This document shows, one piece after another, positions 6,201 to 33,149 of a DNA stretch of 64,000 nt. The notes beneath the pieces were generated by a model. It searched no databases. It was not told the DNA's origin and saw only the letters and a program-made list of their open reading frames with translations. Each line of letters begins with the position of its first letter. Position 1 is the first letter of the stretch. This DNA is from Saururus chinensis (Eukaryota > Streptophyta > Magnoliopsida > Piperales > Saururaceae). The stretch covers positions 48,119,160 through 48,183,159 of the forward strand of contig CP141143.1 of assembly GCA_035235625.1 (NCBI GenBank), read 5' to 3'. A program made the translations under genes and the position numbers.

Positions 6201-6231
6201 CTACAACACTGTATGGTTAATTGAAGAAACG

Positions 6232-6589: not shown

Positions 6590-6769
6590 ACCCGTGCTCT
6601 GTTATATGAGATATGATGAATAACAAGGGGGAGACCATAGAAGCAATATTGTATGCTAGAGACGAATTTAACTGATATGACCTAACTGTTGACTGGTACA
6701 TTATAGGTTGGTCTTTAAAGTAAATTGTGTAGTCAATAAACTTTATATAGTCTGTTATGTATATGGGTA
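6590..6769 (+). repeat. Left MULE monomer, first part (cut by the CACTA element)
   Basis: This is the beginning of a diverged ~340-bp monomer (GATATGATGAATAACAAGGG, then ACTGATATGACCTAACTGTT). It is interrupted at 6769 by the CACTA element and resumes at 9650. Confidence 0.8.
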
Positions 6770-9649
6770 CACTACAACAAAAAGAACTATTAGCGATGCC
6801 TTTATGCGTTGCTAATAGTCTTCTAAGCATCGCTAATGCCTATTAGAGACGCATAAATAATGTCGCTATAAACATCGCAAAAAGTGTCGTCGTTATTGCT
6901 TATTAGCGACATATACAATATACGTCGCTAATAGTGCCTATTAGTGATGTATTTTTATATGTCGCTAATAATCACTTATTAGCGACGTTATCTATACGTC
7001 GCTAAGAATTTTTTAAAAAATAAAAAATAGCTTATTAGCTACAGAAAGCGTTGCTAATATGAAATAATATTACTAAAAAAATAAAATTTATGTATTAGCG
7101 ACGCTTAAATAAGAGTCTCTAATAGGAAAAAAAAATTAAAAAAGCTTTAGCGACGCTTTTAAAAGCGTCGCTACAAACCTTAAAATTTTTTTAAAAAATA
7201 TTTGCCGAAGGCGATCTGGGGGAGAGGAGAGGGGCCAGATTCCAGCGCCCCGCCTGAATCCGGACAATCCTATGGCTGGGGGGAGCTAGAGGGGGAGCAG
7301 GGAGCTGGGGGAGAGGGGGGAAGGAGAGAGAGGGGGAAGGAGAGAATGGAGAGAGAGAGAGAGAGAGAGAGAGTGTGAGGGAGGAGAGAGAAGGGAGGAT
7401 ACAGAGAGGGGAGGGAGGAGAGAGAGGGAGGAGAGAGAGGGGAGAGGAGGGTGGAGAGAGAGAGGGGGAGACCGGGGGGGCAAGGGGAGAGGGGGGAAGG
7501 AGAGACCCCCTCTCTCTCTCTCCACCCTCCTTCTCTCTCTCTCTCTCTCTCTCTCTCCTCCCTCCCTCTCCTCCCTCCCCTCTCTGTATCCTCCCTTCTC
7601 TCTCCTCCCTCACACTCTCTCTCTCTCTCTCTCTCTCCCTTTCTCTCTCCTTCCCCCCTCTCTCTCCTCCCTCTCTCCCTTCTCTCTCTCCTCCCTCTCT
7701 CCCTTCTCTCTCTCCTCCCTCTCTCTCCCCCTCTCACTCTCTCTCCATATATCCTCTCTCTCCCCCCTCTCTCTCTCCACTCTCCTTCTCTCTCCTCCCT
7801 CCCCTCTCTGTATCCTCCCTTCTCTCTCCTCCCTCACACACTCTCTCCTCTCTCTCCCGCTCCCCTTCCCCCCTCTCTCTCTCCTCCCCCTTTCTCTCCT
7901 TCCCCCCTCTGGCCCCTCTCCCTCCTCCCTCCCCTCTCTGTATCCTCCCTTCTCTCTCCTCCCTCACACTCTCTCTCCCTCTCTCCTTCCCCTCGTCTCT
8001 TTCTCCTCCCCCCTTCTCTCTTTCCTCCCTCTCTCCCTTCTCTCTCCCCCCTCTCTCTCTCTCCTCTCTCTCTCCCCTCTCTCTCTCCCCCTCTCTCTCT
8101 CTCCTCCCTCTCTCCACTCTCTCTCCCCTCTCTCTCTCCCTCTCTCTCTCTCTCCTCCCTCTCTCCACTCTCTCTCCCCTCTCTCTCTCCCCTCTCTCTC
8201 TCTCCTCCCTCTCTCCCTTCTCTCTCTCCCTCTCTCTCCCCCTCTCTCTCTCTCCTCCCTCTCTCCCTTCTCTCTCCCTTCTCTCTCTCCCCTCTCTCTC
8301 TCCTCCCTCCCCCTCTCTTTCTCTCCCTCCCTCCCTTCTCTCTCTCCTCTCTCTCTCCCCCTCTCTCTCTCCTCCCTCCCCCCCCTCTCTCTCTCCCTCC
8401 CCTCCCTTCTCTCTCCTCTCTCTCTCCCTCCTCCCTCCCCCCTCTTTTTCATTTAATTTTTTATTTAAAACATAGGTAGTAGCGACGCATTTGTATGCAT
8501 TGCTACTACAAAGGGTAATAGCAACGCTTATCCATATGCGTTGCCATTACCCATACCTAGTAGTAGCGACGCATAGGCCTATGTGTCGCTACTACTTTTT
8601 TTTTATTTTTTTATTTTTTAAAATATTTTTTCTCTCTCTCTTCCCTCTCTCTCTCCCTCCTTCTCTCTCCTCTCCCTCCTTCATCTATCCTCTCTCTCCC
8701 CTCCCCTATCTGTATCCTCCCTTCTCTCTCCTCTCTCTATCCTCCCTTCTCTCTCCCCCTCCCACTCTCTCTCCTCCTCTCCTCTCTCCCTCCTCTCTCT
8801 CTCCCCCTCTCTCCTTTCTCTCTCTCCCTCTCTCTCTCCTCCCTCCCCTCTCCCTCCTCCCTCCCCTCTACGTGTCCTCCCTTCTTTCTCCTCCCTCACA
8901 CTCTCTCTCTCTCTCTCTCCTTCCCCCCTCTCTCCCTTCTCTCTCTCTCCTCTCTCTCTCCCTGCTCTCTCTATCCTCCCTCCCCTCTCTCACCTCCTCT
9001 CGATCTCTCTCTCCTCCCTCTCTCTTCTCTCTCTATCCTTCCTCCCCTCTCTCTCTCCTCCCTCTCCTCTCTCTCTACCCTCCCTCCCCCCCCTCTTTGT
9101 CATTATATTTTTTATTTAAAAATAGGTATTAGCGACGCATGTAACTATGTGTCGCTATTACCAAGGGTAATAATGACGTATAGTTAAATATGTCGCTAAT
9201 ACTATCCAGTAGTAGCGACGCATAGCTATGCATCGCTATTAGTTCTTAATTTTTAATTTTTTTATTTAAAATTGATAATTATTCGTGAGGTTTGTTTATA
9301 AATGTCGCTATTGTTTAAACTATTAGCAATGTTTGAAAAAATACGTCGTTAATGGTTTTAAAATTAAAAAAAATAATAAATATACCTTTTAGGGACGCTT
9401 ATATAAGTGTCGCAAATAACCTAAGTATTAGCGACACATAAATTTAAGTGCCACTAAAAGGATAGGTATTAGCAATGTTTATGCTTATGCGTTGCTAATA
9501 GACTACTATTAGCGATGCTTAATATTATGTGTCGCTAATATTAGTTTTTTTTGCAACACTTTTTCATATGTCGTTATTATCACTTTGTAACGACGCATAT
9601 AATTGCGACGCTTATATAAGCGTCACTAATACCCAATTTTGTTGTAGTG
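6770..9649. mobile_element. Non-autonomous CACTA (En/Spm-type) transposon
   Basis: The element is 2,880 bp, starts CACTACAACAAAAAG and ends TTTTGTTGTAGTG, and is flanked by an exact 3-bp duplication GTA (6767-6769 and 9650-9652). Both ends hold many copies of a short subterminal motif in both orientations (TTAGCGACGC, GCGTCGCTAATA), at about 6785-7190 and 9125-9625, with a further cluster near 8480-8600. Subterminal arrays of this kind bind the transposase in En/Spm elements. There is no transposase gene. The middle is a purine/pyrimidine simple-sequence block. It inserted into a monomer of the MULE's left array, so it is younger than that array. Confidence 0.92.
7277..9100. repeat. Polypurine/polypyrimidine block inside the CACTA element
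   Basis: 7277-7505 is nearly pure purine (GAGAGGGAGG-type), and 7506-8445 and 8625-9095 nearly pure pyrimidine. A unit of about 48 bp containing TCTCTGTATCCTCCCTTCTC recurs near 7580, 7808, 7938, 8708 and 8870, and in reverse complement near 7385-7420. The purine arm can therefore pair with the pyrimidine arm. Long open frames here (up to 366 codons of Ser, Pro and Leu) are artefacts of the composition. Confidence 0.9.
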
Positions 9650-11140
9650 GTAGATTGATCTTGTAAAAAGTAGATTGTGTGTTTAATGGTTAGTTTGCGG
9701 TCATGGCTTTGAAGAACCATAGAAGAATGCACCAAAAGTCTTTGAGGATAGAAATTTAGTTGCTAGGCTAAGTCTGGATAATAATGCTCGTTAGTGGCTA
9801 TTCTTGACCATTCTATGTGAAATGTGATATGATAAAAAATAAGGGTATACCATTTAAGCAAGTATATATACGTAAAACAAAGTTAACTGATAGGACCTAA
9901 CTGCTGATGTGTAGGTTTTAGGTATCTTTTATTTTCTTGCAAAGTACATTGTGTCAGCATTAGACTTGATATAGTTAGGTATATATATGGGTAGTAATAG
10001 GAGTGTGCGGCTTTCATGTTGTCAAATGTATAATGTGTATTTGGGGCTTAGCTTACATGGATAAATTTTACCGAATGCAAAACAAATGGACAAAATTATT
10101 TGAGGGTCGTCATGTAGGTGCAAGGCTACATCTGTAAATTATTGCTCATTAGTGGCTTTTTTTACCATTCTCTGTGATATGTGATATGATGAAAACAAGG
10201 GTAGACCATTTAAGCAAGTATATATGCTTAAAACAAAGTTAACGGATAGGTCCTAACTGTTGACTGGTATCTTTTAGATATTTTTTATTTTTTTGCAAAG
10301 TACATTGTGTAGGCTTTTGACTTGATATAGTTAGGTATATAGATGGGTAGAGTAATAGGAGTGTAAGGCTTTCATGTTGTCAAATGTATAATGTGTGCTT
10401 GGGGCTTAGCTTACATAGATAAATTTTACCGAATGCAAAACCAATGGACAAAATTATTTGAGGGTCGTCATGTAGGTGCTAGTCTACATCGGTAAATTAT
10501 TGCTCATTAGTGGCTTTTTTACCATTCTCTGTGATATGTGATATGATGAAAATAAGGGTAGACCATTTAAGCAAGTATATATGCTTAAAACAAAGTTAAC
10601 GGATAGGTCCTAACTGTTGACTGGCATCTTTTAGATATCTTTTATTTTTTTGCAAAGTACATTGTGTAGGCTTTTGACTTGATATAGTTAGGTCTATATA
10701 TGGGTAGAGTAGTAGGAGTGTGCAGCTTTCATGTTGTCAAATGTATAATGTGTGTTTGAGGCTTAACTTACATAGATAAATTTTACCAAAGGCAAAACCA
10801 CTAGGCCAAAACTATTTGATGGTCGAAATTTAGGTGTTGGGCTACATCTATAAATTGTTACTCATTTTTACCATTCTCTGTGATATGTGATATGATGAAA
10901 ATAAGGGTAGACCATTTAAGCAAGTATATATGCTTAAAACGAAGTTAACTGATAGGTCCTAACTGTTGACTGTTAGATTTTAGATATCTATTATTTTTTT
11001 GTAAAGTATAATGTGTAGGCTTTTGACTTGCTATAGTTAGGTCTATATATGGGTAAAGTAATAGGAGTGTGGGGCCTTCATGTTGTCAAATGTATAATGT
11101 GTGTTTAGGTTTTAGCTTACATGTTATGTATTTTACCATA
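9650..11140 (+). repeat. Left MULE subterminal array, ~357-bp monomers
   Basis: The anchor GTGATATGAT falls at 9824, 10181, 10538 and 10887, giving spacings of 357, 357 and 349. Each unit also carries AAGTTAACTGATAGGTCCTA or a near match and CAAAGTACATTGTGT. The first unit is completed by 6590-6769 across the CACTA insertion. The last three units are very alike, so this part of the array expanded recently. Its reverse-complement relatives are at 28440-30930. Confidence 0.9.
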
Positions 11141-14100
11141 TATTTGCATGGATGGTTATTATAAAGTAAAACAAATTTGCAAAATGGAAATTTTAAACAC
11201 TGTAGGGTGAAGATACCAAGTAATGCCTTAGTGATCTTCAAGCCATTGGAAAGTGATAAGGGTAGTGCCCATGAGGGCGACCCTCAACCCAAATCCACCT
11301 ATGCTTACATAAGGAGGCTGGAAGAGTATTTCAATAAGCGTAGATGACAAGCAACACTCTTTGAAGGATTATGTTTCAGAAAATACTTGCAGTTAGACAT
11401 AGAGAAGTTCATGTTCCCACTTCAAGCCTTGCACCACATAATAAAAATGCATTAGGGAGAGTATAGGTTTCAAGTGACAAAAGCTTATTCGATGAAGTTG
11501 TCACCCACAGAATTTGCCCAAGTTACTGGTCTGTGTATGGCTGATGTGTTGTCATCCCTTCCAACAGTGCCAAAAGTTTTGAGAAAGGACTCCCTACTTT
11601 GTAGGGTGTTTGGCAAGGAGAAGCTTCACATAACGAAGGAGCAGATATACCAAAAGATCATCATAAGCAAAAGTGATGAAGACGTGATGAAGTTGGCCCG
11701 CATACTAGTGTTGGCTTCTTTCATTGTGGGTAGAGGGTGGGAGCATAAGGTGGACCGGCGGTTTTTTTTGTTGGCTGATGATGTGGATGAGTTTGTTTCA
11801 TATCCATGGGGTAGCATTGCTTATTGGGATACACTCCATAGCTTGGAGGAAGCAAGGAAGGCCCTAACCAAAACCATTTAAATTGTGCACAGATTTGTAC
11901 CGGCACTGTTGGTACGTTGTTTCGGTAGTTTGATTGAGGTTTTAATGTAGTATGATGCATATGAGATTATGACATTTATGTCCATGGTTTGAATATGCAG
12001 GTTTGGGCAGTGGAAAGGATTCCTCTGCTTGGGGACTTATGTGCCAGATGTGTACAAGATGTTTATCGTAGATTGCTGAATTGGGCTAACTATAAGAAGC
12101 CTAATTATGAAGCAATTGACAAAGCAATTTTTGGAGAGGAGAAGGTAATATATTGTCAGTTGTTGTCTTACTATGACTTCTAATTTGCAAACGACATATA
12201 TGATGACTGATAATGAAAATATTTTGTCTTTTAGGTGTTGGTGCATAGGCACTTGGAGTTGGCCCAAGTTGAGTCTGATGAGGAGATTGTCCAATCAGCC
12301 ATAGGGCTGAAGAATTTTCTGAAGGGGGACCAGATAATTTTTGATAAATTTGAGGTCCCCGTTGGTGGTGCCCTATAAGGGGTAGAGGAACATGTAGAAG
12401 TAGATACGGAGGAGGAGCCTCGGCGAGCTCATGAAACACTTGTTTCTTTTGTTGATGAGGTGTAGCAAGAGGGAAGTGGACAACCACATGCTATAGGGGG
12501 ACAAAATGTGCATAGCCAATTGGACTGGATAAAGGACACCTTAGTCATGCTTGTTGGCACATATGACATCATTCAGCTAAAACATGCTGCATTCGACCAT
12601 TTGGAGGCCAAGGTAGACAAATTGTCACAAGATGTTTCAGCTTTGTTGTCCATGAATGGGAGGTCGACAGACCCATTAGAGGTTAGCGACATTATATTAA
12701 TTATTATGACTTCTTATTAGTGGTAAGTTTTATTATTATTGTATTTCCACAATAATCATACTATGGTTTACAATATTTAATATTGACCAGGAAGGAAAGG
12801 ATGTTGGAGATGATTTTGTTCAAGAAGATGAAGCCCATCAAAACCCCATCAATGAATCTCAAAGTCTGCAGGTTAGTGAATGCAAACTTTTGTCATATGA
12901 AGGACATGATTTTCTTGCCTTAATGTTATACTTTTATTTCTTAATTGCCCCACATTGTCCTCATATTTTTTTCTTTGGATTTACACTTCTACTCATACGT
13001 GTATGTCTTAAAAGGAAATCGATGTAGATGAAGTTCTCCCATTTTATGGTGCATCTGGTGTGGTCGTTGGGGAGGCTGGGGTTGATATTGGGAGTGATGC
13101 CCGAAAAGTCAAAGAGGTTGTGCCCCCTGATGTCCATGGTAGGAAGAGGACTGTCAGCAAATATATAAGGACCCCTTATACAGTGCCAAGGAGAAGCAAT
13201 AGGAGGTTGGTGAGGGGCCCAAGTGATATTGAAGAGGAAGAGATTGCTGGCAAGCCCTTAAATGACGACGATGGTTACTGCGAGGGAGAAGAAGATGGGT
13301 AGGCTAACATTGAATTGGCTTACCATTTACTTGATCAAATTGAAGATGTAGGAGATTTAGTTATTGCCAACCCACCTAAGGGACAAACTCCACCAAGGCA
13401 GGAAGCCCACAGAAGCAAGATATGTGGACTCGTTGCACTCTCAGAGATAGCCTTGCTGGAGTATGCATGTCCTAAATCACATGTCCTAACACCGGAAGAA
13501 GATAAAACCCTTCAAAAGAGCCTCAGGAAGGGTTGGAAATCTAAGTGAGTTCATAGCATAGTATTAGCTTTCATACACTTTTCATATCATATTGATCAAT
13601 TTCATTTACATAAATATGTGTTGACATTCATGGCATTCATACTTGATCAACCGGCCGGCAATCGGTGGAATCCAGCTGACATCCGAGTTTATACGGTCCA
13701 TTATGCAACAGCATAGGTGGCTTTGGGATAATGTATGTACGAATTACTCGTTGTATTATTAGTAGTTGGTTGTGTTGTACACAATAATAATTATTCTAAT
13801 GTTTATAGAAACTATATACGATACTCATTCGATGTTCGATCCCTCTGATATAGCATATAGATGCGTATGTGCTGGATTTGCGGAAGAAGGCACTTGGGAA
13901 CCCAACGAATAAGCAAGCCTTCCATCTTGTCCATTTTTTTGTAGGTCTATATTTGTTTTTAATTTCATACTTAACAGGGGGTTAGTCAATTAGGATTTGA
14001 AAATCAAATGTTAATATTTTAAAATCTGCTGTTAGTCATTGTGAATTGTCCATACTATATTTATAATCCAGTGTTATTATATCAAGATTTAAAATCCAAT

Positions 14101-14819
14101 ATTTTAAATATGAAGGTAGTGGTTAAACATTTGATTGGTGTATTTGAAATATAGAGTTAGTCAAAAAATAAAATTGTGTAACTAGAGTGGATTTTGCACG
14201 ATACTTTACAACGTCAAAGTGATATTTTACACTACCACCTCCGAAAGTGGTATTTTCAAATGACAGAGGCTTCCATATTAATCAAGGCATCGCGAGGAGA
14301 AAGGAGGCTGACGCTGTCCAGAGGCTCGTGAACATTGTCACTGTTCATTCTATGTGAAACGACATTCGAGCTTTGAACTTGGCCGCGGCTGCTTCGACCG
14401 GAGCTCAACGCCTAGATCCGGTGGCTGCTTGGACCAGAGCTAGGAGACTACTTGTACCAGAGCTCGGCGACTAGATCCGGCGGCTGCTTGGACCGAAGCT
14501 CGGAGACTGGGTCATTTTCAGGTATTCTCTTCACCCAGGTGACCAAAGCTCTGCGACTGGATCGCCTCCCATCCTCCGACCACCGCTCTGTCTTCTCTCT
14601 CTCTTTTTGTTTTTTTTCCTTCGCATACACGCTTGCTACTCCACTCATGGCCGCCCCTCTCTCCAACATGACCTTGGTTTGGATATGGGATTTTTTGAGT
14701 TTCGATCTGGGATTTTCTAAGGTTATGATCAAGCTTGCAATTTGTAGCTTTTTGGTGATTCTCAGTTCGGGAATCAAAAACAGTTGGAGATTGCAAGCTT
14801 TTAGATCTGGTTTTCAGAT

Positions 14820-15803
14820 ATGGCAAGTGATGGAGGTGGAGGGAAAGGTAAAGGGAAAGCTTCTTATGAGCAATGGTCATCTGTGGAGACTAAAGAGCTT
14901 ATTAAACTATTGGTGGATGAAGTTAATCATGGAAATAGATTGACTAATGGGACATTTAGAAAGGAGATAATAGTTGAGAATGTACTTCCAAAATTGAATG
15001 AAAAGTTTAATTCTCATAAGAATGAAATGAACGTCAAAAACAAGTTGAAGGTTTTGAAACAAAAGCTTGCACCCATTGAACAGTTGATGATGCCAAGTTC
15101 TAGATTTGGATGGGATAGTTATTCACAAAAGATAACTGCCTCAGAAGAAGTGTGGGATGAATATTTTCAAGTAAGTAATATTTAGTTGACCCTCATACGT
15201 AATATGAATAGCATTAGTTTATTTTTAATTTAATAATATGAATATATTACATATTTAAATATTATTTGTTTTTAGGCACATCCTAAAGCAATGGACTACC
15301 GAGAAAAAATTGTAGAAGACTATGATGATTTAGTGTTGATTCTTGGTAACATGTCTGTGCTTGGAGTTGGGGCAGCCAGTTTATCAACTAAGGCTGCTGA
15401 CTTTGTGCTTAAACCATCAGCCACCAACTTTGAAGATGATGATACATTGCCTCCCTTTACTAGTGATTCCCCACATGTGGGTGATTCAACCTTTCATTAG
15501 CGCCCACATTTGGAGACTGAGCCACCTCCAACTCGTAGAAGATTAAATCCATGGGCTACATCTGAGACAAGAGATGCCATAGTCACGTTAGCACCTAAGT
15601 TTGATCTTCTTATTAAATCATGCGAAATTATACAAAATTGGTTTAATGCTATAGGAGAGATTCCAAACCTTAGTAAGGATTTAAAGTATTTTGCATACGC
15701 ATTTTTGAGCAATGCAACATTGAATGAGGCATTCGTCAGATTGCCCCACGAGGAACATCGTGAATGGTTGGAGTATAAGTTTGCAAGAAGAGGGGATACT
15801 TGA
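14820..15803 (+). pseudogene. Harbinger ORF1, Myb/SANT-like DNA-binding protein
   Basis: PIF/Harbinger elements need this second protein, which binds DNA and helps bring the transposase to the nucleus. Exon 1 (14820-15170) begins with a Gly/Lys-rich leader, then a Myb/SANT-like domain: YEQWSSVETKELIKLLVDE, later FRKEIIVENVLPKLNEKF and NKLKVLKQKL, ending EEVWDEYFQ. The intron is 15171-15275 (GTAAGT...TTTAG). Exon 2 (15276-15803) continues AHPKAMDYREK, and its C-terminal part contains RRRLNPWATSETRDAI. One in-frame stop (15498-15500) interrupts exon 2 and the rest is open. The ATG at 14820 fits the domain start. Confidence 0.85.
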
Positions 15804-17068
15804 AAGATGATTTGTTATAGCTATTTTTTTGGGCTCTCAAGTAGAATTTTTTTTGGATGTGCTTATTAGGAATATTAGTTTATAAGAATAGTAGTCACTT
15901 AAAAAATGACTTGACCTCACTATTTTTTTGGGTTCTTGACTAGATTTTTTGGGTTGTGCATATTAGAAATGTTCAATTGACATATATGTAGATGTCTATG
16001 CATAGATTGACAAGGAGGAATGCTTTGGCTATTTGAACTACTTTTTTTTTTTGGTTTTATGCCAATGTATAATTGTAAACCATAAAACAATGAATGAATT
16101 AGGCGTATTTGGAGTTTCGCTTGTTACGATATTGGTTTGCAATTTCTTTTCACTTCTATAGGATATGGTTTTATGTGGTTGAGTGTTTATGTCAATGGTT
16201 TTGTGCGAACGAGGTGTGCCCAATTATGAGATCCATGGAATAAAAACTCGTATGGTTAGTCGCCTTAAATGTCCTGATGAATGTGTTTTTGTTCTTCTTT
16301 GTTTTGGGAAATGGATTACATTTACTTTTAATTTTTGTTGTTGATATATTACTGCATAATAACATGTTTGATGAGATCGGTATTGTGATAGAGATTTATG
16401 TTAACAGAGTATTAGATTTTTGTTGATCGGTATTATGAGATCTTCTTTTGCTGAGAAGGGCATAGAAATGGTCTTTGTTTTCATTTTTTGATGTCGATTT
16501 GATGTTGATCATTGCAGCATATCATATGTATTTCTCTTGCTCTATATGGTAATGGCTTTTTATATTGTAATTGAAATATTTGATACAAGTTAAATATTTT
16601 CATTCTTTGTTTTGGAATGAATCAATGTGCAACTGTAAAGCATAAAACAGTGAATGAATTGTGCGAAATGTGCAGATTATTGAGTATTGTGTGAAAATGG
16701 ATATACGATGTTTTCAAATTATTAAAAATTGCTTTTACAGGTTTTGGGTTCGTCATTTTTCTCAATTTATAGACGTTATATTGCAAATTTTTTTTCTGAA
16801 TTTTAAATAAAATGTGTGAAATAATCTCAGGCATGACCTAAAAAAATATATATCAACTTCATAATACATGTATCAGCACTTATCTATTTACCGTTTGTGA
16901 AACTCATTTATCATAATGTGCCAAATATGAGTTTATCTTTTCTGAAAATTGATCTTTGTTAGTATGACTCTTGTAGATGTTTTTAGTATTATTAAAGGTT
17001 CATGATTCATTTACGTATTTGTGTGGAGTCATGTTAATGTTTGTGAGTTTTTTCTCCAAATAGTTATA

Positions 17069-18473
17069 ATGGCAGATTTTTTGAACTCTGAGGTAGTAGA
17101 GGCTTGCGACTTTGAAGAAGATGAATGTGTAGTAACAATCTCTATGGCAAATATATTAAATCAAGCAATTATGGAGTCAGATGTATTGCACACACATGAA
17201 CCCAACATGAACCCTCATCTCTCTATTTCAACTGAAGGTTATCGATATTTACAAAGAAAACTTGATGGACGTCCTGATGAATTCCGTGATATGTATAGGA
17301 TGTATCCGGATCCCTTTGCAAATTGTGTTGCATTCTCCGCCAAAAATCTTTAATATGTGATACTAGATAGGTGACAGTGGAAGAGATGGTAGCAACTTTT
17401 TTACTAGTGGCGAGACATGATCAACGTTACTCAATATGCCAAGATCGTTTAAGTTGATCAAAATGGACGATTAGTAAAAGTTTCAATAAAGTCTTGGATG
17501 CAATTCAGTTGTTAGCACCTTCGTTAATGGCACATCCTCTTGATAGCACACCGCAAACAGTGATGTCAGATCCACGTTTTTACCCATATTTTAAGGTTTG
17601 AGTTTAAATTTTTTTTTATTTCAATAGGTGTGCATGTATATAATATTTGAATTTGTTATATAGGATTGTATTGGTGCTATAGATGGAACACATATAAAGG
17701 CAACTGTTTATAGGGCTAGGAAGGCAAGCTATTGTAATAGGCATGAATGGTTTTCACAAAATGTATTAGTAGCATGCACATTTGATATGCAATTTATATA
17801 TATTCTTGCTGGATGGGAAGGTTCTGCAAATGACTCAAAGATATTAAAAGATGCTATAGGGAGGTCTAATGGTCTTCCATTGCCAGAAGGTATCATTGTA
17901 GTTTTTATTTTTTTACTTTTTATTTTAATTTTATTAGGCAGGGGCGCACTTATATTATTGCAATTTATTGTTTGAACAGGGAAGTTTTATTTGGTAGATT
18001 GTGGTTATCCAAATAGACATAATTTTTTAGGGCCATATCGTGCAACTCGTTATCATCTCAGCGAGTATAGTACACAAGCTAGAAGTCGTCCACGTAATGC
18101 AAATGAAGTATTTAATCATCGACATGCATCTTTGAGGAATGTTATTGAGAGGATTTTTGGGGGCTTAAAATCACGTTTCAAATTTTTTAAAGATCATCCA
18201 CCTTCATTTCCATATGAAACTCAAGTGAAGATGGTTTTTGCTTGTTGTGGATTGCATAATTACCTTCGCAGGGAAAATAGTGAAGATGTATTTGATTCTA
18301 ATAATGAAGAGGAAGAAGCACCACGAAATGTCCCATTAGATCCTAATATAGATTCAGATTCAGATGACAATATGACATCTCAAGTGGAACAAAGAGTAGC
18401 GGCTAATGCATGGAGAGATGGAATAGCTGCAGAAATGTGGAACGATGCAATGTTTATGACTATGGGCTTATAA
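17069..18473 (+). pseudogene. Harbinger DDE transposase
   Basis: This is a DDE_Tnp_4-type transposase. The start ATG at 17069 reads MADFLNSEVV. Exon 1 runs to about 17596 and ends DPRFYPYFK before GTTTGAG. Exon 2 starts near 17665 with DCIGAIDGTHIK (first Asp) and continues to WEGSANDSKIL (second Asp). A second intron (about 17890-17979) precedes exon 3, which reads KFYLVDCGYPNRHNFLGPYR and RNVIERIFGGLKSRF (Glu), then CCGLHNYLR and an acidic tail to 18473. All three DDE positions are present. Three in-frame stops in exon 1 (17351, near 17372 and near 17456) disable it. Confidence 0.9.
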
Positions 18474-19486
18474 ATTGTGTTTTGGATAATTTAGTTGTCT
18501 TGAGTGTGTGTAACTTTTTTGTTAAAGACGTTATTTTTATAATATTAATATTTTTAGTTGATATTTTAATGACATGTTTGAAGTTATTTAACTCTAGTAA
18601 ATTATGTATTAGTCACATTTGAAATATGTAGGTTAATTTTTTAAGGAGTTAATTATTTTGAAATCTGATAATTTAAATCCAGGGATTCTAGCAATACTAG
18701 ATTTGGGCAGCCAATTATTTAAGAATCTGACAGCTCAATTCCAAGAATTTGGCTTATATTTTGAAATTTCATATTCTAAATCCTAAATTTTAAAATCTTG
18801 ATTGACTAACCCCCTGTAACTGACAACTGCCAACTACATGACTGACATCTGTTTCTAATTCAACAGGAGCTTATGAGGATGGATGCATCTCCCCTCCTCA
18901 GTCTATACGCATTAATGAAGGAAAAGGATGCAAATGTCTCCAGGGCCACCGTTGTAGCATCATGGCCAGAAGTTCCGACCAACATGTTGAAGTTATTGAA
19001 GGTGAATGAAAAAGACTTCTGGGAATATGAGGTCCACTACTTCCCTCTTCATGTAAACGACAACCATTGGACTCTCATTATTCTTGACTTGAGGAAGGAT
19101 GTCCTATACATAATGGACCCATATTACTCTGGCGTTGAGGTAGAGCAGTACTACAAGAAATAGGCGATACTCAGACATGTTTTGCCAACAGTTTTGTTAA
19201 AATTGGGATATGAAGCAGCCGCTACCTAACACCTCCCAGTGAGAGAGATATCCGGACACCCACAACAAATCAATAACAATGATTGCGATGTCTGCATATG
19301 CATTTATATGTGGTACCTATCTCATGGGTACCAATTGAGCTTTACCGGAGAGGACATGCGCATCATGAGGCATAGGGTTGCATACCAAATTCTGCAAAAT
19401 TCCATATGACGACCATTTTCTTGTGTTGTAGATGTGGCTTAACTTGATGGCGTTGGTCCATGACTATGTGATTCAGTGTATGTTTG

Positions 19487-20674
19487 TGATGCACTGAAAT
19501 AATGTTCAATAAAATGTTTTCAAATTGCAATCCTATTTTGTGTTAATTCATTTGCTGATTTGGGCTATTTATGTTTTGAATAAGTTAGTTGGACCTTAAT
19601 TGAGTTTACATGTCTAAACAGGCTTCAACAGGATACAACTAAAAGAGGAAGTTAAGCCCAACTACCCAAAGCTATTTAAAAGTCAAGAATGGGCTCCTAA
19701 TGGTCTAAACATGCATGGAATGGTCGAACACAACCTTGTGGACCCATTTGATTTGAGACTTGTATGAATAGAACTAAATTATGAAAGAAGTTGATTTGGA
19801 CAGATTGACACAGCCTTAGTATTTCGATCATATCTTTTTATGTATAATTCAAATTGATACAGTTATGGTGGCAATGGAAAGAAGACTTCCGTGGCTATAA
19901 GTGTTATTTCATAAAGAAATTCCAAATTCCGAAGATATATGGGTCCAATCAGACAATCAATCAGGATGTAATCTAGATATATGATTTCATTTTCCTCTTT
20001 GAAGCAACCCCTTCTACTCCTATAAATAGAGGGGTGGACGTGATAGAAGTATCACTTTCTCCTCTTTGGAGCTCTCTTCTCCTATTTTCTTCTCTCATTT
20101 TGTAATTTTACTTTTAGTTTTATTGTAATGGCTTTCTAAAGCTCTTAAGCTAAGGCTAGGAATGAAGCTTGTACTTAATGTTTAATGGATACTTTGATTC
20201 AAGTAAGTTCTTTATCATTTTAAATTGATGTTTCATATTTAAGGAGTTTATAATCTATATAATAATTTGATTCAGCGTGGACGAAAGGCACGCCGAATGC
20301 TTATAATTCCCTGTGATTATATGCTTAATACTTTCACGTAGTAAACAATCAATTACTATTGCTCTATTTTAAAGTTCTTTAAAAGATAAATTTTTCGATT
20401 GAGACAAATTTTCATTTGATCTTAATTGAGTTATCATTTGAATAAAGTATACATTAGAGATTTATTACAAGTAGATTTTCGATGCCTTAACACTTTCTCT
20501 TTGATTGTCTCTTATTATCTATTTCACTTTCCTTCTCTATTCTATTCTCTTCGTAATAGTTTTCTGTGTCACATAAGGCTTTCCCTGTGGATCGACCTTG
20601 TTTACTATAGTTGACAAGTAAAAAAAGAAATCTGAACTAGACTCCTTCATAGTCTTAGTTTGGATATAACAACA
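19487..20674 (+). repeat. 5' LTR of the short element
   Basis: 1,188 bp, TG...CA ends, immediately followed by the primer-binding sequence. Confidence 0.92.
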
Positions 20675-21147
20675 AATTGGTGCCATTGCCGGGGACATGA
20701 GACACATTGAGTTGTTCGATTCATGAGAATGGGATTGTATAATTACTTGGCAATGTCTGTTTTTCTAAAACTATTATGTATGTATGAGTACTTACCACCA
20801 ATATGAAGTTGTTAGAATGAATTATTGTTTCAGAGGACAAGTTATATTATGCATGATTGATTTTCATATATGAAGTCACATGTTTAGGAGGAGTTGATTT
20901 GTAAATTTGACGTAGTTTTAATTTTAATTTTTTTTTATCATTCTAGTTTTGAATTTTGTGGGTAGATTCACTGCAAACCCTCACGAGACACAACTCGTCC
21001 ACTAGTGTAAGCTAGGGGTTTAAAGGCTTATTGTATATGCTAAATGCAATCGAGATTTCCTGCAGAAGTAGAGTAGTTAGTTTTGTTTTCTATTTTTTTA
21101 ATTTTTGTTTTGCTCGAGGACTAGCAAAAAGTAGGTTTGGGGGTATT

Positions 21148-22289
21148 TGATGCACTGAAATAATGTTCAATAAAATATTTTTAAATTTCAAATTATAATC
21201 CTATTTTGTGTTAATTCATTACTGATTTGGGCTATTTATGTTTTGAATAAGTTAGTCGGACCTTAATTGAGTTTACATGTCTAAACAGGCTTCAACAGGA
21301 TACAACTAAAAGAGGAAGTTAAGCCCAACTACCCAAAGCTATTTAAAAGTTAAGAATGGGTTCCTAATGGTCTAAACATGCATTGAATGGTCGAACACAA
21401 CCTTGTGGACCCGTTTGATTTGAGACTTGTATGAATAGAACTAAATTATGAAAGAAGCTGATTTGGACAGATTGACATAGCCTTAGTATTTCGATCATAT
21501 CTTTTTATGTATAATTCGGATTGATACGATTCTAGTGGCAATGGAAAGAAGACTTCTGTGGCTACAAGTGTTATTTCAAAAGGAAATTCCGAAGATATAT
21601 GGGTCGAATCAGACAATCAATCAGGATGTAATCTAGAGATATGATTTCATTTTCCTCTTTGAAGCAACCCCTTCTACTCCTATAAATAGAGGGGTGGATG
21701 TGATAGAAGCTTCACTTTCTCCTCTTTGGAGCTCTTTTCTCCTATTTTCTTCTCTCATTTTGTAATTTTATTTTTAGTTTTATTGTAATGGCTTTCTAAA
21801 GCTCTTAAGCTAAGGCTAGGAATGAAGCTTGTACTTGATGTTTAATGGATACTTTGATTCAAGTAAGTTCTTTATCATTTTAAATTGATGTTTTATATTT
21901 AAGGAGTTTATAATCTATATAATTATTTATTCAGCGTGGACGAAAGGCACGTCGAATGCTTATAATTCCCTGTGATTATATGCTTAATACTTTCACGTAG
22001 TAAACAATCAATTACTATTGCTCTATTTCAAAGTTCTTTAAAAGATAAATTTTCCGATTGAGATAAATTTTCATTTGATCTTAATTGAGTTATCATTTGA
22101 ATGAAGTATACATTAGAGATTGTCTCTTATTATCTATTTCACTTTCCTTCTCTATTCTATTCTCTCCGTAATAGTTTTCTGTGTCACATAAGGCTTTCCT
22201 TATGGATCGACCTTGTTTACTATAGTTGACAAGTAAAAAAAGAAATCTGAACTAGACTCCTTCATAGTCTTAGTTTGGACGTAACAACA
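21148..22289 (+). repeat. 3' LTR of the short element
   Basis: 1,142 bp direct repeat of 19487-20674, preceded by a G-rich purine tract and followed by the second copy of the target duplication. Confidence 0.92.
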
Positions 22290-22696: not shown

Positions 22697-25600
22697 TCAC
22701 TTGCACAATTTGTCGTCAACTGTACATGCATTGAGCTCAGCCACTTGTCTCATTTTCTTCTTTCTCTTCCCCTTTGGGGTTAGAGTGTTGATCTTCGACT
22801 GGATTGGACATGTGTGACACTTCACCCTAATTTCTTTACCACCCACCGTGTCGACTACATGTAGGACTTGTGTAGATGTTGACAAATTTTGGTTAGCAAG
22901 AGTTGGTGATGGGGGTTGGCCATGAGAATGAAGGGATGTAGCTATGGATGTATGATAAGTAAGGCCCCCAACTAGGTTCTCTCCAATTACCGTGGTACAA
23001 GTATTGCGATAGTGACCGTATTGTTTGCACTTATGACATTGTACTCTCCTTTTTTCTTCACCTCGAGAGAGAATTCGCTTCTTCTTTATCTGGCCCAGTC
23101 GTGCCTTATCCTTGGGAGGCCTCAACTTAAGGCTCTTCACATCTTCAGGAGTTTCCCATCTTTTATGTTCAAGAACTAGATAAACTATCATGCTATAGAT
23201 TTGCCTATAAGTTTCCATTGTGTAGAACGGGGAGCAATAGTCAACATAATTTAGTCTTCGGTGGCCACATGCTGCCAACGCATGTTCACAAGTCAACTCC
23301 ATTTGTTGAAACTTTCCACATGTACAAGTCTTTGCGATAAGGTCAACTTGATCATCCCCTCTTTTGGACCTAATTAAGACCTCATGACCACTTATGGGAT
23401 AACACATCATCCCTCTAGCTGCTTCATTGCACTTCTGAATCTTGCCTTCGGACTATTTAGTCAAGTAGCCCTTCCAATGTTGTGCCTCCAATCCACGCTT
23501 GTACCACATGTCTTGCGCCTTCAAACGGATGGCCTCAATGATCATGACAATGGGAAAGTGTCATTGCTCACTAATCATTCCATTGAAGACTTCGCAAGGG
23601 TTGGATGTGACTATATTATACCTAGGCGAAGGAAAGTAAGTAGTAACCCACCGTGACTTATCAATTCCAGTTAACCACTTGTATGCCTCGGGGTTTTTCT
23701 GCTAAATGATAGTCATTTCTTCCATATATGTCTCTGGCCTGAAAGCTTTTGCCGCCCTGAAGAAGTTATTGTTCAAACCTCTATCTTTGAAATGTGCAAA
23801 CATGTTTTGAGGTATGTGAAATGCACAATATCCATGTGTGGCATATGGAAACATTTAAGCTACTTGTGATGTGATTGATCTATGCCAATCAGAAAGTATC
23901 ACTAGGCCCTCCAAATAACCAAGGCGGCTTTCCAAATGTACAAGGACCCATCCCCATGCATCATTATTTTCTCCTTCTCCGATAGCACAAGCAATTGGGT
24001 ATATATGGTTCTCACTATCCAATGTAGATATCACAAACAAAGTCCCTTTGTACCTTCCTTTCAAGAATGTGCCATCTATACATATAACCCATCGCATGTA
24101 CTTCTTGAAGTTCTCTATGGCTGCTCCAAAGGAAACAAAGCATCTCTTGAATGTCAGATCCGATGAGTTGTACTGGAGAGCAGTTGAGGTGCCTGGATTT
24201 GCCTTCTCCAACTCATATAAGTAGGCAGCCAACTCAGCATACGATGACTCATAGGATCCTCTTAACTTGTTAAACGCCGCAATCTTTGACCTATATGCCT
24301 TCGAATAATTCATCTCCACTCCATATTCTAAATCAACATCAACTTGAATATCTTTGGGAGTATAAGCAACACATTTCCTAAGTCGTTTCACCACTGAGTC
24401 AGCAATAATACCCACTTTTGCTTGTTTATGATATCCTCCAAATATTGGTTTCCCACATGTATGAACATTGTTCATTGCTTTCACTTTGAAGATACTACAC
24501 CCCTTAGTTATCACAGCATGTAACCTCCATGGACATCCCGACACATTGCACACAACTGTGAATCGAGATTTATTTGAATATTTTACCTTGAACTCAAAGT
24601 TATTGTGCATATCATACTTGTGTACATGTAGCTTCAGAGAGTCCTTATCCATAAACTCTTGGCCAAGTAGAACAACCTTCGGATCTTTGCCATAGTCATA
24701 CAAATCAACCTCCACAGCCATGTTGTGCTCTTCATTCACACACACCTCCACATCTAATATGCTGAACGATTATATTTATGTTGGTATTAGAATGAGATAA
24801 ACAGTTATAAGTTAGGTATAATCAATTAACTGACTACGTAAATATGACCTTTGATGTTGTTTTGCTGCCAAAGTTTTCCCAAAAATGCTACTTGATGGTG
24901 TTGCTTTCCCCTAGCCAACACCATGTCCGTTATTTATGAATGACATTGTTCCATGTGCTCTTGTTGGAACTTCATCGTCCCTGTATTTAAAACCACTACA
25001 AATTTACTACACATTGATAATTTAGCAAACAAACAGATAATAATAATGATTTAAAACTTCTTACCACTTTCTTTCAGCGATGTCAATGTTCATCACTTTA
25101 TTTAAGTTCTGAGGCGGACCTCTTCCACCTTCCGTAGCTGTGGCAGTCGCATTTTGACGATTTTCATACCAAATGTCATCATCTCCTCCCACAATGTAGA
25201 CATCCTCATCATAATCATGCAATTCAAATTTATCCTATTTCATGTCATCCGCATGATACTCTTGCCATCCATTGTAGATGACATCTTCTTCATCAATGTT
25301 ATACATTGTGTTGGGCCCACTTTCTTCATCATTTGCTCCTCTAGCATCATTACCCTCATTTTAGTTGGCCAAATTCTCCTCAATATTTGAGATGTTCACC
25401 TTATCCACTTCAAGCCTTGCAATGGGGACATCTACTAGTTCTTCATCAGAATCGGATTGCAAATTTAAGTAAATAGGAGGAGGTTTCTTTTCCTCCAACT
25501 CCCTGGCCTCACACAGTAAGTCATCTACATCTGCGTCGTCACTCAAATCCATTGTGTTCTTGTACAAAATGTCCCTATCTGCCGCACCGCATGCCAAATG

Positions 25601-25915
25601 ATCATTGCTTTCACATGCATCCCTAACTCCTACTTCCTTCACTTCCACCTTCTGGTTCACTTCATTCACATGTCTACTATGCACTTCAGCATCATTCAAA
25701 ATAATCGACTGGTTAATCTTTGCATCGGATACATCAAAATTCCGCTCACATTCCTGGAACACATGTACATGTCGCACTTTGGTTATTATCAATGGTAGAC
25801 CATCGTGCCTGGTCTTGGCATAGTGCAGAAAACAATGAAGAGTCCTAGTATCATGTATTTTCGTTGGAGGTATGTCGAGGGGGATTGCCAAAGGATATGT
25901 GAAACTCATCTTCAA
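22697..25915 (-). pseudogene. MuDR-type (MULE) transposase gene
   Basis: Reading leftwards, 25915 to about 25066 encodes an acidic N-terminal part (SDDADVDDLLCEARELEEKK) with stops at 25361 and near 25235. After spacers, 24751 to 22697 stays in one frame. It contains a Mutator DNA-binding type domain (GQEFMDKDSLKLHVHKY; CNVSGCPWRLHA), the DDE domain (ICIDGTFLKGRYKGTLF with the first Asp; LVILSDWHRSI with the second; YCAFHIPQN), a SWIM zinc finger (CTCGKFQQMELTCEHAL) and a zinc knuckle (CHKCKQYGHYRNTC). Four in-frame stops lie between about 23453 and 23857. It converges with the Ulp1-like gene, as in other Ulp1-bearing MULEs. Confidence 0.93.
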
Positions 25916-26863
25916 TGACTATTCCTCTCTACAACATCCTATTGCTTTGTAAACCATGGACACGAAGGATTCGTACGTCATTGAGCTTCTAACAAATATG
26001 AGATCTGACTAGGCATTGGAGCAATCATACTTGTGTCGACTTGCATCTCACTCCCTACCCCCCCCCCCACCCCACACACACACACACACACAACAGAGGT
26101 TGTTCATCTGTATCCATCTGAATACACCCGATAGTTATGTCAGTTAGGCTCTAGCAGTTATCAGTTGATACTTATCAGTCAATGCTTTCCATTGCATAAT
26201 TGAAAGAACTTTGTGTTTATGTTCTTCAAATTGATTCTTAACCTCAATCATTCCTTCCTGTATTACAAGTGTACATGTGGCACACCCACCCTATAAGTAC
26301 CTCCAAAAGCAAAGATTATAAGTACCCGCGAGTTACCTATGTTAGCCACTACCAGTTATCAGTTGAGCCGGATTAGTTAAAGCTTTTGCCGATCTTCGCC
26401 ACACCCAAAAATTAGCTGCCTTTCTTGTTTCATCTTCAAAGCATATCAGGTAAGAACTAGTTCTTCCACAAGTAAAAACATTAACATATTCTCTACATCC
26501 AACATTACCATTGTTCCGGTAGGGCTACCTTTAGGTAGAAACGCGACTATCCGTGTCTTCCTCCATGAGTTAGGGTACATATGGGGAGGCTGCTCTTCGA
26601 CATCCACCTTCCACCAACCTAAGTCCCATGATATGCTAGTAGGGCAATAAGCAAATGGGGCCGTAAGAGAATACCTCAGAAGTTAGCCTGGGATGAAACC
26701 TCCTGGCTGTTAAGAACATGACGGGGTGTTTCACGGTTTTCACCTTTATGACGAGGTATGGGCCATTTTGGCTATATGCTGGCACGCACGTGGACATCTC
26801 AAATGTGGTGATGTTTCTTGATTCTCGTGCACCACAATGGAAATATGTAGCTAAATGTATATA
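25916..26863. other. MULE internal sequence, no gene recognised
   Basis: Region upstream of the transposase start, presumably holding its promoter. It includes a poly-C then (CA)n microsatellite at about 26058-26092. No coding domain was seen. Confidence 0.4.
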
Positions 26864-27062
26864 ATAAAGCGAAAAGTTTATATGAGCCCGGGCTCATATG
26901 CGCCTACGTGAGCCAGGGCTCTATGGGCAGTCGGATTTACATCCGGTGGCCCATAATGCCCTGTGAGTATTATGGGCCACCAGATGTAAATCCGATGGCC
27001 CATAGAGCCCGGGCTCATGTAGGCGCGCGTGAGCCTGGGCTCATATAAACTTTTTGCTTTAT
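26864..27062. mobile_element. Foldback/MITE-like hairpin element
   Basis: Two arms of about 94 bp are near-perfect reverse complements (starts ATAAAGC, ends GCTTTAT) around a short spacer containing CCTGTGAGT. The arms are GC-rich, with repeated GAGCCCGGGCTC palindromes. There is no coding sequence and I could not assign a superfamily. The right arm is the source of the following tandem array. Confidence 0.75.
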
Positions 27063-27720
27063 GAGTCCCGTTGAAATGCCCCGTGAGTATTATGGGCCGC
27101 CATATGTAAATTCAACGGCCCATAGAGCCCGGGCTCACGTAGGCACGCTTGAGCCCGGACTCATATAAACTTTTTGCTTTATGAGTCCCGTTTAAATGCC
27201 CCATGAGTATTTTGGGCCGCTGGATGTAAATCCGACGGCCCATAGAGCCCGGGCTCACGTAGGTGCTCGTGAGCCTGGGCTCATATAAACTTTTTGCTTT
27301 ATGAGTCCCGTTTAAATGCCCCGTGAGTATTATGGGCTGCTGGTGCACATGAACCCGGTCTCATATAAACTTTTTGCTTTATGAATCCCGTTTAAATGCC
27401 CCATGAGTATTATAGGCCGCCGTATGTAAATCCGACGGCCCATAGATCCGAGGCTCATGTAAGCACTCATATAAAGTGTTTGCTTTATGAGTCCCGTTTA
27501 AATGCCCCGTGAGTATTATGGGCTGTTGTATGTAAATCCGACGGCCCCATAGATCCCGGGCTTACGTAGGAACACATGAGCCCGGGCTCATATAAACTTT
27601 TTGCTTTATGAGTCCCGTTTAAATGCCCCGTGAGTATTATGGGCCCGCTGTATGTAAATCCGACGGCACATAGAGCTCGGGCTCAAGTAGGCGCGCGTGA
27701 GCCCGGGCTCATATAAACGG
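27063..27720 (+). repeat. ~120-bp tandem array derived from the hairpin arm
   Basis: Units carry TTTATGAGTCCCGTTTAAAT, then CCCCGTGAGTATTATGGGC and CATAGAGCCCGGGCTCA, with full units of about 120 bp beginning near 27060, 27180 and 27300, and shorter ones near 27380, 27485 and 27605. The last unit ends at about 27720. Because 120 is a multiple of three, a false 40-residue protein repeat appears on the minus strand. Confidence 0.85.
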
Positions 27721-28160: not shown

Positions 28161-28169
28161 GTTCTAACC

Positions 28170-28440: not shown

Positions 28441-30930
28441 ATTTAATTCAAAATATATCAGCCACATACCATTTATAAGTCATCAGTTAGCCAATATCAG
28501 TTCACCTTATGTTAACCATGTACTCTAGGTTATATGGTCTCGTCCTAACTAATATCATATCACATCACTGAAACCTACCATGTAAACCTATATTAATCAA
28601 AATTACCGATCACACAATGTACTTCAACAAATAATAGCCTACTAACATCTACCAATCACCAGGTAGGTAGCTCGTATCAGTTAACTTAGTTTTAACCACA
28701 TAAACTAGGTTATATGGTCTCCTCATCCGTAAGTATTAGAGCAAAGCATACTCCTGAGTAAATCTAATTACATATATTCTTACAAAATATCATTAACTAT
28801 ATAATGTGCGGCACATGATTCGATGTTGGTGGTATATGGCAATATGTTCATACCTTTTCTTTTGTTGATTATATAGAGTGATTATTCTGGATCAAATATT
28901 GTAATTGATTTGGAGAGCAATCAGTCATGCACATTACAAAGTTTAATCATTAGGATGTGGTGGTGGCAAGCGGAAGTATAAAACAATCATTACTATCGAT
29001 TCAGACGATGAAGATGTTAAATATGAGGTGGGAAGCATAGATATGGTGTACACCATATCTATGTTCCCCACCTAAAATTTAACAACTTCATCGTCTGAGT
29101 CAATAATAATGATTGTTTTATAATTCCACCTACCACCACCAATGCCTAATGAAGAAACTTTCTGATGTGCAGAATATTTGCTCTTCAAATCCAGCCCATC
29201 TTTTGATCTAGCATAATCGATCAATACACTTTGAAGCTAACTGGCACCTCACCTTTGGCCTCCACCGACTTGTTCTCTGCTCTAGCTTCTGCTCCACTGC
29301 CCCTCGCATGCCTTGGGGAGGTGGAGATATAAGTGTACTACGGTAAAGTGAAGAGTTAGATTTAGTCAAAATCAGTTAACTACAAGTCAACATTTAATCG
29401 AAATTAGTTAACTATCTTCTAACCATATAAAGTAGGTTATATGGTGTCGTCGTCACTACATGTTAGATCGTATAATTGAAACCTACCTTGTAAACCTAAA
29501 TTGCGCAAATCTAATGACCACCCAATGTACTTTGAAAAATATTAGCCTCCTACCATCTACCAGTCAATAGTTAGGATGCATCAGTTAACTTTCTTTTAAC
29601 CATATAAACTAGGTTATATGGTCTCCTCCTCGCTAGATATCATATCACATCATACTCATGAGTAAAACTAAGTACATATGTTCTTCTTACTTACCCTAAC
29701 AACAAAACATATATATTCATTTACTTACTTTCCATCTATTAAAATATATTACAAGCATACTAACTAAGCACCTTACACACAAGATAAAGTTGACATTTTT
29801 ACTTAATAACACTCTTATTTATCCACCCACATGTAAACATAACTATGGCAAATCAAATGACCTCCCAATGTACTTCAAAAAATATAAGCCTCCTACCATC
29901 TACCAGTCAATAGTTAGGATGCATCAATTAACTTTGTTTTCTTCTATCTACTAGGTCATACTAGCACCAAACACACAAGATATGTTTGACAATATAACTC
30001 ACATACACGCTTATTTATCTACACATATATAAACCTAACTTGATCAAACCTAATGACCACACAATGTACTTTGTAAATAAACAAGCCTCCTTACATCTAC
30101 CAGTCAATAGTTAAGCCCTATGAGTTAACTTCCTCTAATCCATATAAACTAGGTTATATGGTCTTCCCCTTCCTATAAATCATATCACATCAGTCAAAAC
30201 ATGGGTAAAACTAATGAGCTATATCTTTTCTTACTTAGCCTGGCAATAAAAATACATTCATAGTTAATTACTTTGCCTCTATTAATCTCTATCAAAGGCA
30301 TGCATACTAAGCACCAAACACATAGTATGTGTTTGACAATATAACTCACAGGCACACTTATTTATCCACCCATATATAAGCCTAACTTGATCAAATCTAA
30401 TGACCACACAATGTACTCTGGAAAAAACAACCTCCTTATATATATTGTCAGGCCCTATCTGTTAACTTATAATTATCCATATAGACTAAGGTATATGATC
30501 TCATTGCTAAAAATTAGATCACATCATTCGAAACATAGGTAAAACAAATGATATATATTGTTCTTAGCCTACCAACAAAAAATGCATTCACTGTTAATTA
30601 CTTTGCATCTATTATTATCTATCAAAGACATACATACTAATCACCAAACGTGTTAAATATATTTGGCAATATAATTCACATACATGTTTATTTATCTACC
30701 TATGTATATACCTAACTTAATAGAATCTAATGACCACTCAATGCACTTTGCAAAAACAAATGCCTCCTTACATCTACCAGTCAACAGTTAGGCCCTATCA
30801 GTTAACTTTTTTTATCCAAATAAACTACATTATATGGTCTCCTCCTTGCTAAAAATCAGATCACAACCTTCAAAATATGGGTAAAATAATATATATTGTT
30901 CTTATGTAACCTCCCATCACTCACTTTTTG
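28440..30930 (-). repeat. Right MULE subterminal array (inverted relative to left array)
   Basis: Tandem copies of a ~340-bp unit, several shortened. Anchors GGTTATATGGTCTC at about 28532, 28708, 29424, 29609, 30152, 30490 and 30830, and CATCTACCAGTCAATAGTTA at about 29549, 29898 and 30097, show the periodicity. The reverse complement contains AAGTTAACTGATAGGGCCTA, CTGTTGACTGGTA and TTTTTGCAAAGT, which match the left array almost base for base. The array is more diverged than the left one and is interrupted by an inverted duplication. Confidence 0.85.
28870..29240. repeat. Inverted duplication (~170-bp arms)
   Basis: The arms meet near 29050 (ATATGGTG|TAC|ACCATATC), and similarity continues outward through the GATTCAGACGATGAAG segment and the CATTAGG segment, with divergence rising outward. 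It interrupts the right MULE array and separates monomers that would otherwise be adjacent. Confidence 0.75.
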
Positions 30931-32535: not shown

Positions 32536-32597
32536 GCGTCAGTTGTTGAGTATTTGATCCCATAGTGATGTCAAGTGAATTGAGAGTCACTTAAGTG

Positions 32598-33145: not shown

Positions 33146-33149
33146 CCGA

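Follow-up and report, generated by a model that had tools for sequence, protein, structure and literature searches.

A right-truncated MULE of Saururus chinensis with facing arrays of ~350-bp monomers and a DUF1985-Ulp1 gene

Results

Organisation of the window copy

The stretch of DNA analysed in this work (the window, 64,000 nucleotides) corresponds to C4:48119160-48183159 of the 516-Mb, 11-contig genome of Saururus chinensis. It harbours a right-truncated member of a multicopy family of cut-and-paste MULEs. Two gene-bearing relatives, e1 (C4:47.84 Mb) and e2 (C11:16.72 Mb), were fetched whole and measure 14.4 and 15.7 kb. From left to right, members of the family consist of a terminal inverted repeat, a ~1-kb spacer and the left monomer array, then the DUF1985-Ulp1 gene and, convergent with it, the MuDR-type transposase, followed by the 120-bp repeats, the inverted right array, another spacer and the second terminal inverted repeat. 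The features of the window copy are as follows:

5576..5708, +, left terminal inverted repeat; starts CAAAAATTTTCAGAAATAGAC in the window copy (family form GAAAAATTTTCAGAAATAGAC)
5709..6543, +, left subterminal spacer; window 5577-6769 aligns with e1 1521-2658 (84%)
6544..6769, +, outer part of the first left monomer (nhmmer match 6544-6773, 100 bits)
6770..9649, +, nested element, presumably CACTA-type (CACTACAACAAAA...TTTTGTTGTAGTG, TSD GTA); splits monomer 1
9650..11138, +, remainder of monomer 1 and left monomers 2-5, ~357 bp each (TRF 9757-11122, period 357; self-BLAST; nhmmer)
11165..19409, +, interrupted DUF1985-Ulp1 gene (Pfam domains; limits predicted from open frames)
13975..18816, +, nested PIF/Harbinger-type element with a Myb/SANT domain and DDE_Tnp_4 (Pfam 7e-20 and 2.1e-12); TSD TAA
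19487..22289, unstranded, nested LTR-type element; repeats 19487-20674 and 21148-22289, 91.6% identical (self-BLAST); TSD GTTTG
22697..24769, -, pieces of a MuDR-type transposase (SWIM, MULE domain, DNA-binding domain), broken in the window copy
25361..25918, -, open frame upstream of the transposase (185 aa; 321 aa in e2); no Pfam match
26864..27718, unstranded, array of GC-rich ~120-bp repeats upstream of the transposase (TRF, self-BLAST)
28457..30918, -, right array, in inverted orientation with respect to the left one; 8 monomer matches (nhmmer; self-BLAST)
30919..31687, -, right subterminal spacer, cut before the terminal repeat; aligns with the e2 right subterminal region (score 1282, shuffle maximum 84)
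31690..32110, -, another high-copy repeat in place of the right terminus (best 40 of 571 candidate places scored)

The start of the window copy at 5576 was fixed by comparison with copies bearing target duplications (TSDs). Its left terminal repeat matches the e1 right terminal repeat at 84% and the e1 left terminal region at 88%. Empty sites for all three nested insertions (6770-9649, 13975-18816 and 19487-22289) are present in e1. We took the family name of the first from its terminal letters, and the TSD of the LTR-type element was read by eye.

Between 9733 and 11138 the left array comprises 3.8-3.9 copies of 357 bp (TRF, self-BLAST). A previous sequence-only reading had started this array at 6590; the first monomer is there on the plus strand, but the array is not continuous from that position, as the CACTA-type insertion sits inside the first left monomer and leaves 6590-6770 as an isolated block. 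The three blocks quoted by the same reading as common to the facing arrays were recovered as claimed, on the plus strand in the left array and on the minus strand in the right one: AAGTTAACTGATAGG at 9880 and 10942 (+) and 30794 (-), CTGTTGACTGGTA at 6686 and 10257 (+) and 30775 (-), and TTTTTGCAAAGT at 10290 and 10647 (+) and 30745 (-). Where they can be aligned, the right and left arrays of the window are 66-75% identical (self-BLAST).

The inner right repeats contain a near-palindrome of 356 bp (28872-29226), also seen in e1 and e2. A Pfam match to PTPLA in the inner right repeat (0.027) fell below the cut-off and was discarded. The ~120-bp tandem repeats at 26864-27718, which contain GAGCCCGGGCTC palindromes, are also found in e1 and e2; they were not found in two derivative copies described below, n8 and n11.

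The element had been thought to stop at 30930, yet MULE sequence runs on to about 31687. Homology to e2 stops at that position, and the last ~280 bp, including the terminal repeat, are gone. The right terminus was sought across the whole window with four terminal-repeat queries, and a truncation of the right end was accepted because, apart from the left terminal region, these yielded nothing beyond matches that were short and weak. As for the repeat that follows (31690-32110), the other 39 of its best 40 of 571 places lie more than 14 kb from any listed MULE landmark.

Genes of the family

Between the arrays lie the two genes that were expected of an Ulp1-bearing MULE, DUF1985/Ulp1 on the plus strand and a MuDR-type transposase on the minus strand. 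The DUF1985 exon of the window (11456-11881, +) has a Pfam value of 4.5e-11, and the Peptidase_C48 pieces (18846-19163 and 19230-19409, +) gave 2.2e-08 for the first and 0.00072, below the cut-off, for the second. The window transposase matches MULE (8.9e-11), DBD_Tnp_Mut (3.8e-13) and SWIM (3.7e-07). In e2 the transposase is a single frame of 689 aa (MULE 1.8e-21, DBD_Tnp_Mut 9.1e-14, SWIM 7.5e-08). The opposite strand of e2 carries DUF1985 (4.1e-12) and Peptidase_C48 (1.2e-19) on separate open frames that probably belong to one gene. A convergent DUF1985 exon lies within 15 kb in 71 of the 112 best transposase matches and in 1 of the remaining 18 (3 at 74-85% identity, 15 at 53-56%).

Terminal repeats and target duplications

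The arrays had been taken for the ends of the element, and ordinary terminal inverted repeats for lacking. Both ideas were abandoned: terminal inverted repeats of ~130 bp, with TSDs, lie about 1 kb outside the arrays in the relatives, and those of e1 (134 bp, 89.6%) are matched by window 5577-5708. A genome search was carried out with the terminal repeat, and an array was found inward of it in 39 of the 40 scored cases (best 40 of 419 candidates). A listed left array lies inward of 24 of the 40, at 1.02-1.39 kb in 22, at 1.6 kb in one and at 4.0 kb in the window, where the CACTA-type insertion intervenes (median distance from terminal-repeat match to array of 1067.5 bp in the 24 copies). Of the other 16, 15 have monomers in the expected orientation within the interior stretches that were fetched, and L067 is without them. 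A listed transposase lies inward, on the opposite strand, at 21 of the 40. Related copies ending well inside the arrays, an outcome that the sequence-only reading had named as refuting it, were not encountered; the scored terminal repeats are outside the arrays.

Target duplications were sought in 15 copies (A-J, e1, e2, n8, n11 and the window). Both ends were recognised in 11, and a single end in E, J, n8 and the window. The 9-bp duplications predicted for other copies were found in 10 of the 11 two-ended ones, exact in B, D, F, I and e2 and with one mismatch in A, C, G, H and n11; e1 showed no 9-bp duplication (4 mismatches, P 0.37). Random positions matched equally well at 0.0005-0.0135 per copy in the ten TSD-bearing copies, the search covering 25 offset pairs with up to three anchors per end and the null the same offsets at one position per draw. 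The left 9-bp flank of the window copy was not found in 30901-34000 (≤1 mismatch); with the right end lost at ~31687 and no matching 9-mer, the window copy is without a demonstrable TSD. At L088:1296-1427, a second, oppositely oriented match to the left subterminal profile, in its terminal-repeat part (61 bits), lies near a left-type array, possibly from two neighbouring or nested copies.

Linkage of the arrays to the MULE

Left-type arrays were clustered from 150 of 193 matches, and the best 40 of 668 candidates were scored; right-type arrays number 39, from 150 of 178 matches (823 candidates). All 40 left-type arrays are single-strand, with 1-11 monomers among the matches listed. A transposase lying inward on the expected strand within 25 kb accompanies 19 of the 40 left-type arrays and 15 of the 39 right-type arrays, the window being included in both counts (random means 0.11 and 0.12 respectively, with the sizes of C3, C5 and C10 assumed). 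A DUF1985 exon lies on the same strand within 3 kb of 26 of the 40 left-type arrays, window included (median 536.5 bp; random mean 0.02, from actual sizes), and the distance is 317-940 bp in 24 of these 26. DUF1985, the transposase or a listed terminal repeat is in place at 35 of the 40. At the remaining five, left subterminal sequence adjoins the array, full-length in three and partial in two (one at the edge of the fetched stretch).

It might be argued that the monomers are a satellite into which a MULE was inserted by chance. They have a tandem period, and one monomer 15-mer has 275 exact copies in the genome (the first 100 places were clustered, for orientation only). However, a MULE landmark is in the expected place at all 40 scored left-type arrays (best 40 of 668), mixed-strand arrays are 0 of 40, and the largest array among the matches listed has 11 monomers, so that this explanation is extremely improbable. 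For these 40 arrays, each tied to a MULE landmark, we discarded descent from a free satellite. Within this set of 40, the condition raised earlier as a possible refutation, monomers found mostly as free satellite, did not hold.

Paired inverted arrays recur in other copies, as had been anticipated: they were confirmed by sequence in e1 and e2, and, counting the window, a listed left-type array lies opposite at least 3 of the 39 right-type arrays. Among the matches listed, 12 of the 39 face another right-type array, forming six pairs 1.4-5.3 kb apart.

Conserved blocks of the monomer

The consensus was built from 58 monomer matches at five loci, some partial or overlapping. The left and right consensus sequences agree at 243 of 339 columns. 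A core, AAAGTTAACTGATAGGNCCTAACTGTTGACTGGTA, agrees between left and right at 34 of 35 columns, with a mean column conservation of 0.88, compared to 0.81 elsewhere. The longest identical left-right run, of 29 bp, is the T-rich CTTTTATTTTTTTGCAAAGTACATTGTGT, which adjoins the core (shuffle P 0.003), and a further block near column 305 is conserved as well as the core. The core is thus one of several conserved blocks. Like elements of the KIU/VANC type, this family has a short motif in common among its non-coding tandem repeats.

The core was searched as 35 columns (34 specified bases) with up to 10 mismatches. It occurs 13 times in e1, 14 in e2, 8 in n11 and 12 in the window element (5576-31687). 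It was absent from three shuffles and from the other 37.9 kb of the window, and likewise gave 0 matches in shuffled sequence or outside the elements at the e1, e2, n11 and window loci. In e1, e2 and the window element alike, a single core-like match (9-10 mismatches) falls beyond the arrays; that of the window is at 26350 (10 mismatches), and the remaining 11 of its 12 matches are in the arrays. Core sites inside arrays number 11-13 per gene-bearing copy (n=3) and 8 in the foldback.

Core sites in the left array of e1 stand 332-358 bp apart; in parts of its right array they are 176-177 bp apart. The shorter spacing, seen in the right array of e1 with L039 and L040 joined, is about half the ~350-bp period. 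A length of 176-177 bp is close to nucleosome spacing. Monomers of ~200 bp were observed in other copies (L079, L080).

The arrays may have no function of their own, slippage and unequal exchange having amplified subterminal promoter DNA whose copies persist only by hitch-hiking with the element. Such an origin would fit arrays that are homogenised within themselves and divergent between left and right, the variable copy number, the ~200-bp variants and the modest excess of conservation in the core. We consider it rather unlikely, since left and right arrays have stretches of 16-29 identical consensus letters in common, in matching register, and the array is in the expected orientation at 39 of the 40 scored terminal repeats.

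Foldback derivatives

The copy n11 (C11:30.67 Mb) is built of two arms, 396-2864 and 6797-4295, which are 93.7% identical over 2510 bp, with monomers in both. It thereby has the long inverted repeats of tandem modules that are a foldback trait. Gene-bearing copies are foldbacks in a looser sense, because their facing arrays are only 66-75% alike. The foldback derivatives retain facing arrays and terminal repeats. In n8 (C8:13.05 Mb) the interior is common to n11 (92%), and its second terminus was not recognised. A third right-right pair (C11:26.51 Mb) has a nearly equal gap length and an exact duplication.

An interior frame of n11 encodes the C-terminal domain of a glutathione S-transferase (GST; Pfam GST_C 1.3e-10), captured as in Pack-MULEs. 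This GST fragment is located at L042:2951-3193, and L041 is a second copy with the same interior. With arms of 2.5 kb and a captured GST fragment, n11 shows the movement of host exons and the making of large inverted repeats.

The termini of the family are imperfectly palindromic, with GAAAAATTTTC-like starts at most ends of the copies compared. Such termini are said to mark FARE as a foldback element. FARE (Windsor and Waddell 2000) reportedly has long inverted ends of modular build and imperfectly palindromic termini, makes 9-bp duplications and includes long copies with an internal coding region. The 2.5-kb arms of n11 far exceed the inverted repeats of FARE, which are reportedly ~550 bp.

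Discussion

Comparison with known systems

The end architecture had been thought to lack precedent. Foldback MULEs with tandem-repeat ends are known, however (Tm1 and Muta1), and the tandem repeats of VANDAL elements are binding sites of VANC proteins. Passages of PMC5225508 describe Muta1 of Aedes aegypti as a type 2 foldback MULE that transposes in yeast, with imperfectly palindromic termini as a foldback mark and 12-bp subterminal tandem repeats inside the terminal repeat. In that account Muta1 differs from the present family in being small (3.2 kb), with repeats of 12 bp and the transposase as the single gene described. Tm1, a Mutator/foldback element of root-knot nematodes, resembles our family in its composite terminal repeats with tandem motifs, its 9-bp duplications and its transposase-bearing and derivative forms, as described in passages of PMC3169594; it differs in having a ~14-bp motif and a Phantom-like transposase. 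The same passages mention FARE of Arabidopsis as a foldback with a MULE-type transposase.

Among the closest known systems are Kaonashi/KIU-bearing MULEs and the VANC-carrying VANDAL elements of Arabidopsis and other eudicots. The gene arrangement recalls KI-MULEs, in which a MuDR-type transposase is combined with an Ulp1-domain gene in reverse orientation (passages of PMC2528002). It also recalls VANDAL and KIU elements in having a DUF1985 gene opposite the transposase, here with Ulp1. The 9-bp target duplications are those tabulated for VANDAL (table in PMC6446971). The ~130-bp terminal repeats of our family differ from those of VANDAL elements, which have been called degenerate or absent; since the group table in PMC6446971 gives 46-174 bp, this is not a strict VANDAL trait.

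VANC, an anti-silencing protein of Arabidopsis VANDAL elements, contains DUF1985, binds short motifs in non-coding tandem repeats and causes loss of methylation; some of the bound repeats are upstream of the transposase gene (passages of PMC5735166). VANDAL non-coding tandem repeats with a shared motif lie near the genes (passages of PMC5735166 and PMC10398659). Passages of a 2026 review (PMC13317346) attribute the same action to Ulp1-bearing VANC genes (KIU), directed at their own group. In VANDAL21, as far as those sources describe it, repeats are in introns and upstream of VANA, whereas here there are two large facing arrays of ~350-bp monomers.

No plant MULE with facing arrays of ~350-bp monomers was found in the titles, abstracts and passages searched, where FARE was available by description only. 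The components are known, and these sources offer a hint that their combination in one MULE is new.

A possible role of the arrays

We consider it just about probable that this family is a KIU/VANC-like self-demethylating MULE with foldback features. The transposase would cut at the terminal repeats. The DUF1985-Ulp1 protein would be a KIU/VANC-like anti-silencing factor binding the core in both arrays, as its homology to VANC and KIU, characterised in the passages cited above, suggests. Bound cores would recur each ~177 or ~350 bp in both arrays, and the protein may strip repressive methylation from the whole element. The regulatory zone of each gene would have sites, one array being immediately upstream of the DUF1985 exon and the other 5' of the transposase. 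The arrays would evolve in concert, so that factor and sites would drift together and act on kin only. Derivatives with terminal repeats and arrays would use both proteins in trans, and right-right foldbacks would result from the copying of one end over its counterpart.

Several observations count against an anti-silencing function. Neither the published VANC21 motif nor that of VANC6 occurs in e1, e2 or n11, and the window element has one of each; VANC target motifs are said to diverge quickly. There are several conserved blocks instead of one short motif, and the ~130-bp terminal repeats are clear. The DUF287 domain of VANC had no match within the translated pieces searched, a subset of the reading frames.

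That derivatives keep their arrays would be explained just as well by transposase binding. Under this alternative, which we regard as possible but doubtful, the arrays are extended transposase-binding zones whose many sites help to pair two foldback-type ends, and they may act in end pairing as subterminal repeats of the Muta1 type. The facing orientation of the arrays, their start 1.02-1.39 kb inward of the terminal-repeat match in 22 of 24 copies and their retention in foldback derivatives speak for it, as does Muta1, which has 12-bp subterminal tandem repeats and transposes in yeast (passages of PMC5225508). By contrast, the ~1-kb gap and the ~350-bp period are far above those of Muta1, array length varies from 1 to 11 monomers among the matches listed, and 317-940 bp separate the left array from the DUF1985 exon in 24 of 26 cases, which fits a regulatory role. 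As to the replication feature that the sequence-only reading had also suggested, no observation made here points to it.

A broader proposal, which we think unlikely as a whole, is that the lineage fuses foldback ends with anti-silencing of the KIU/VANC type. The arrays would then be both the landing platform of the factor and the tag by which foldback and gene-capturing derivatives are mobilised in trans, and the ~177-bp or doubled site spacing may match nucleosomes, with one exposed site per nucleosome or pair of nucleosomes.

Should the arrays prove to be where the element's own DUF1985-Ulp1 protein binds, the family would be a multicopy natural test bed, outside Arabidopsis, for the sequence-specific means by which transposons overcome DNA methylation. 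Arrays of varied monomer number and length lie beside the gene of their own factor, and co-evolution of factor and sites would therefore be measurable.

Other features of the window

Outside the MULE, the open frame 49607-50167 resembles a LINE reverse transcriptase by eye and has no Pfam match. A direct duplication of 2.4 kb (88.7%; 40110-42569 and 45204-47556) flanks a Stress-antifung (DUF26) gene at 44043-45066. Another direct duplication, of 2 kb (83%; 51447-53374 and 57343-59330), contains 56-bp tandem repeats.
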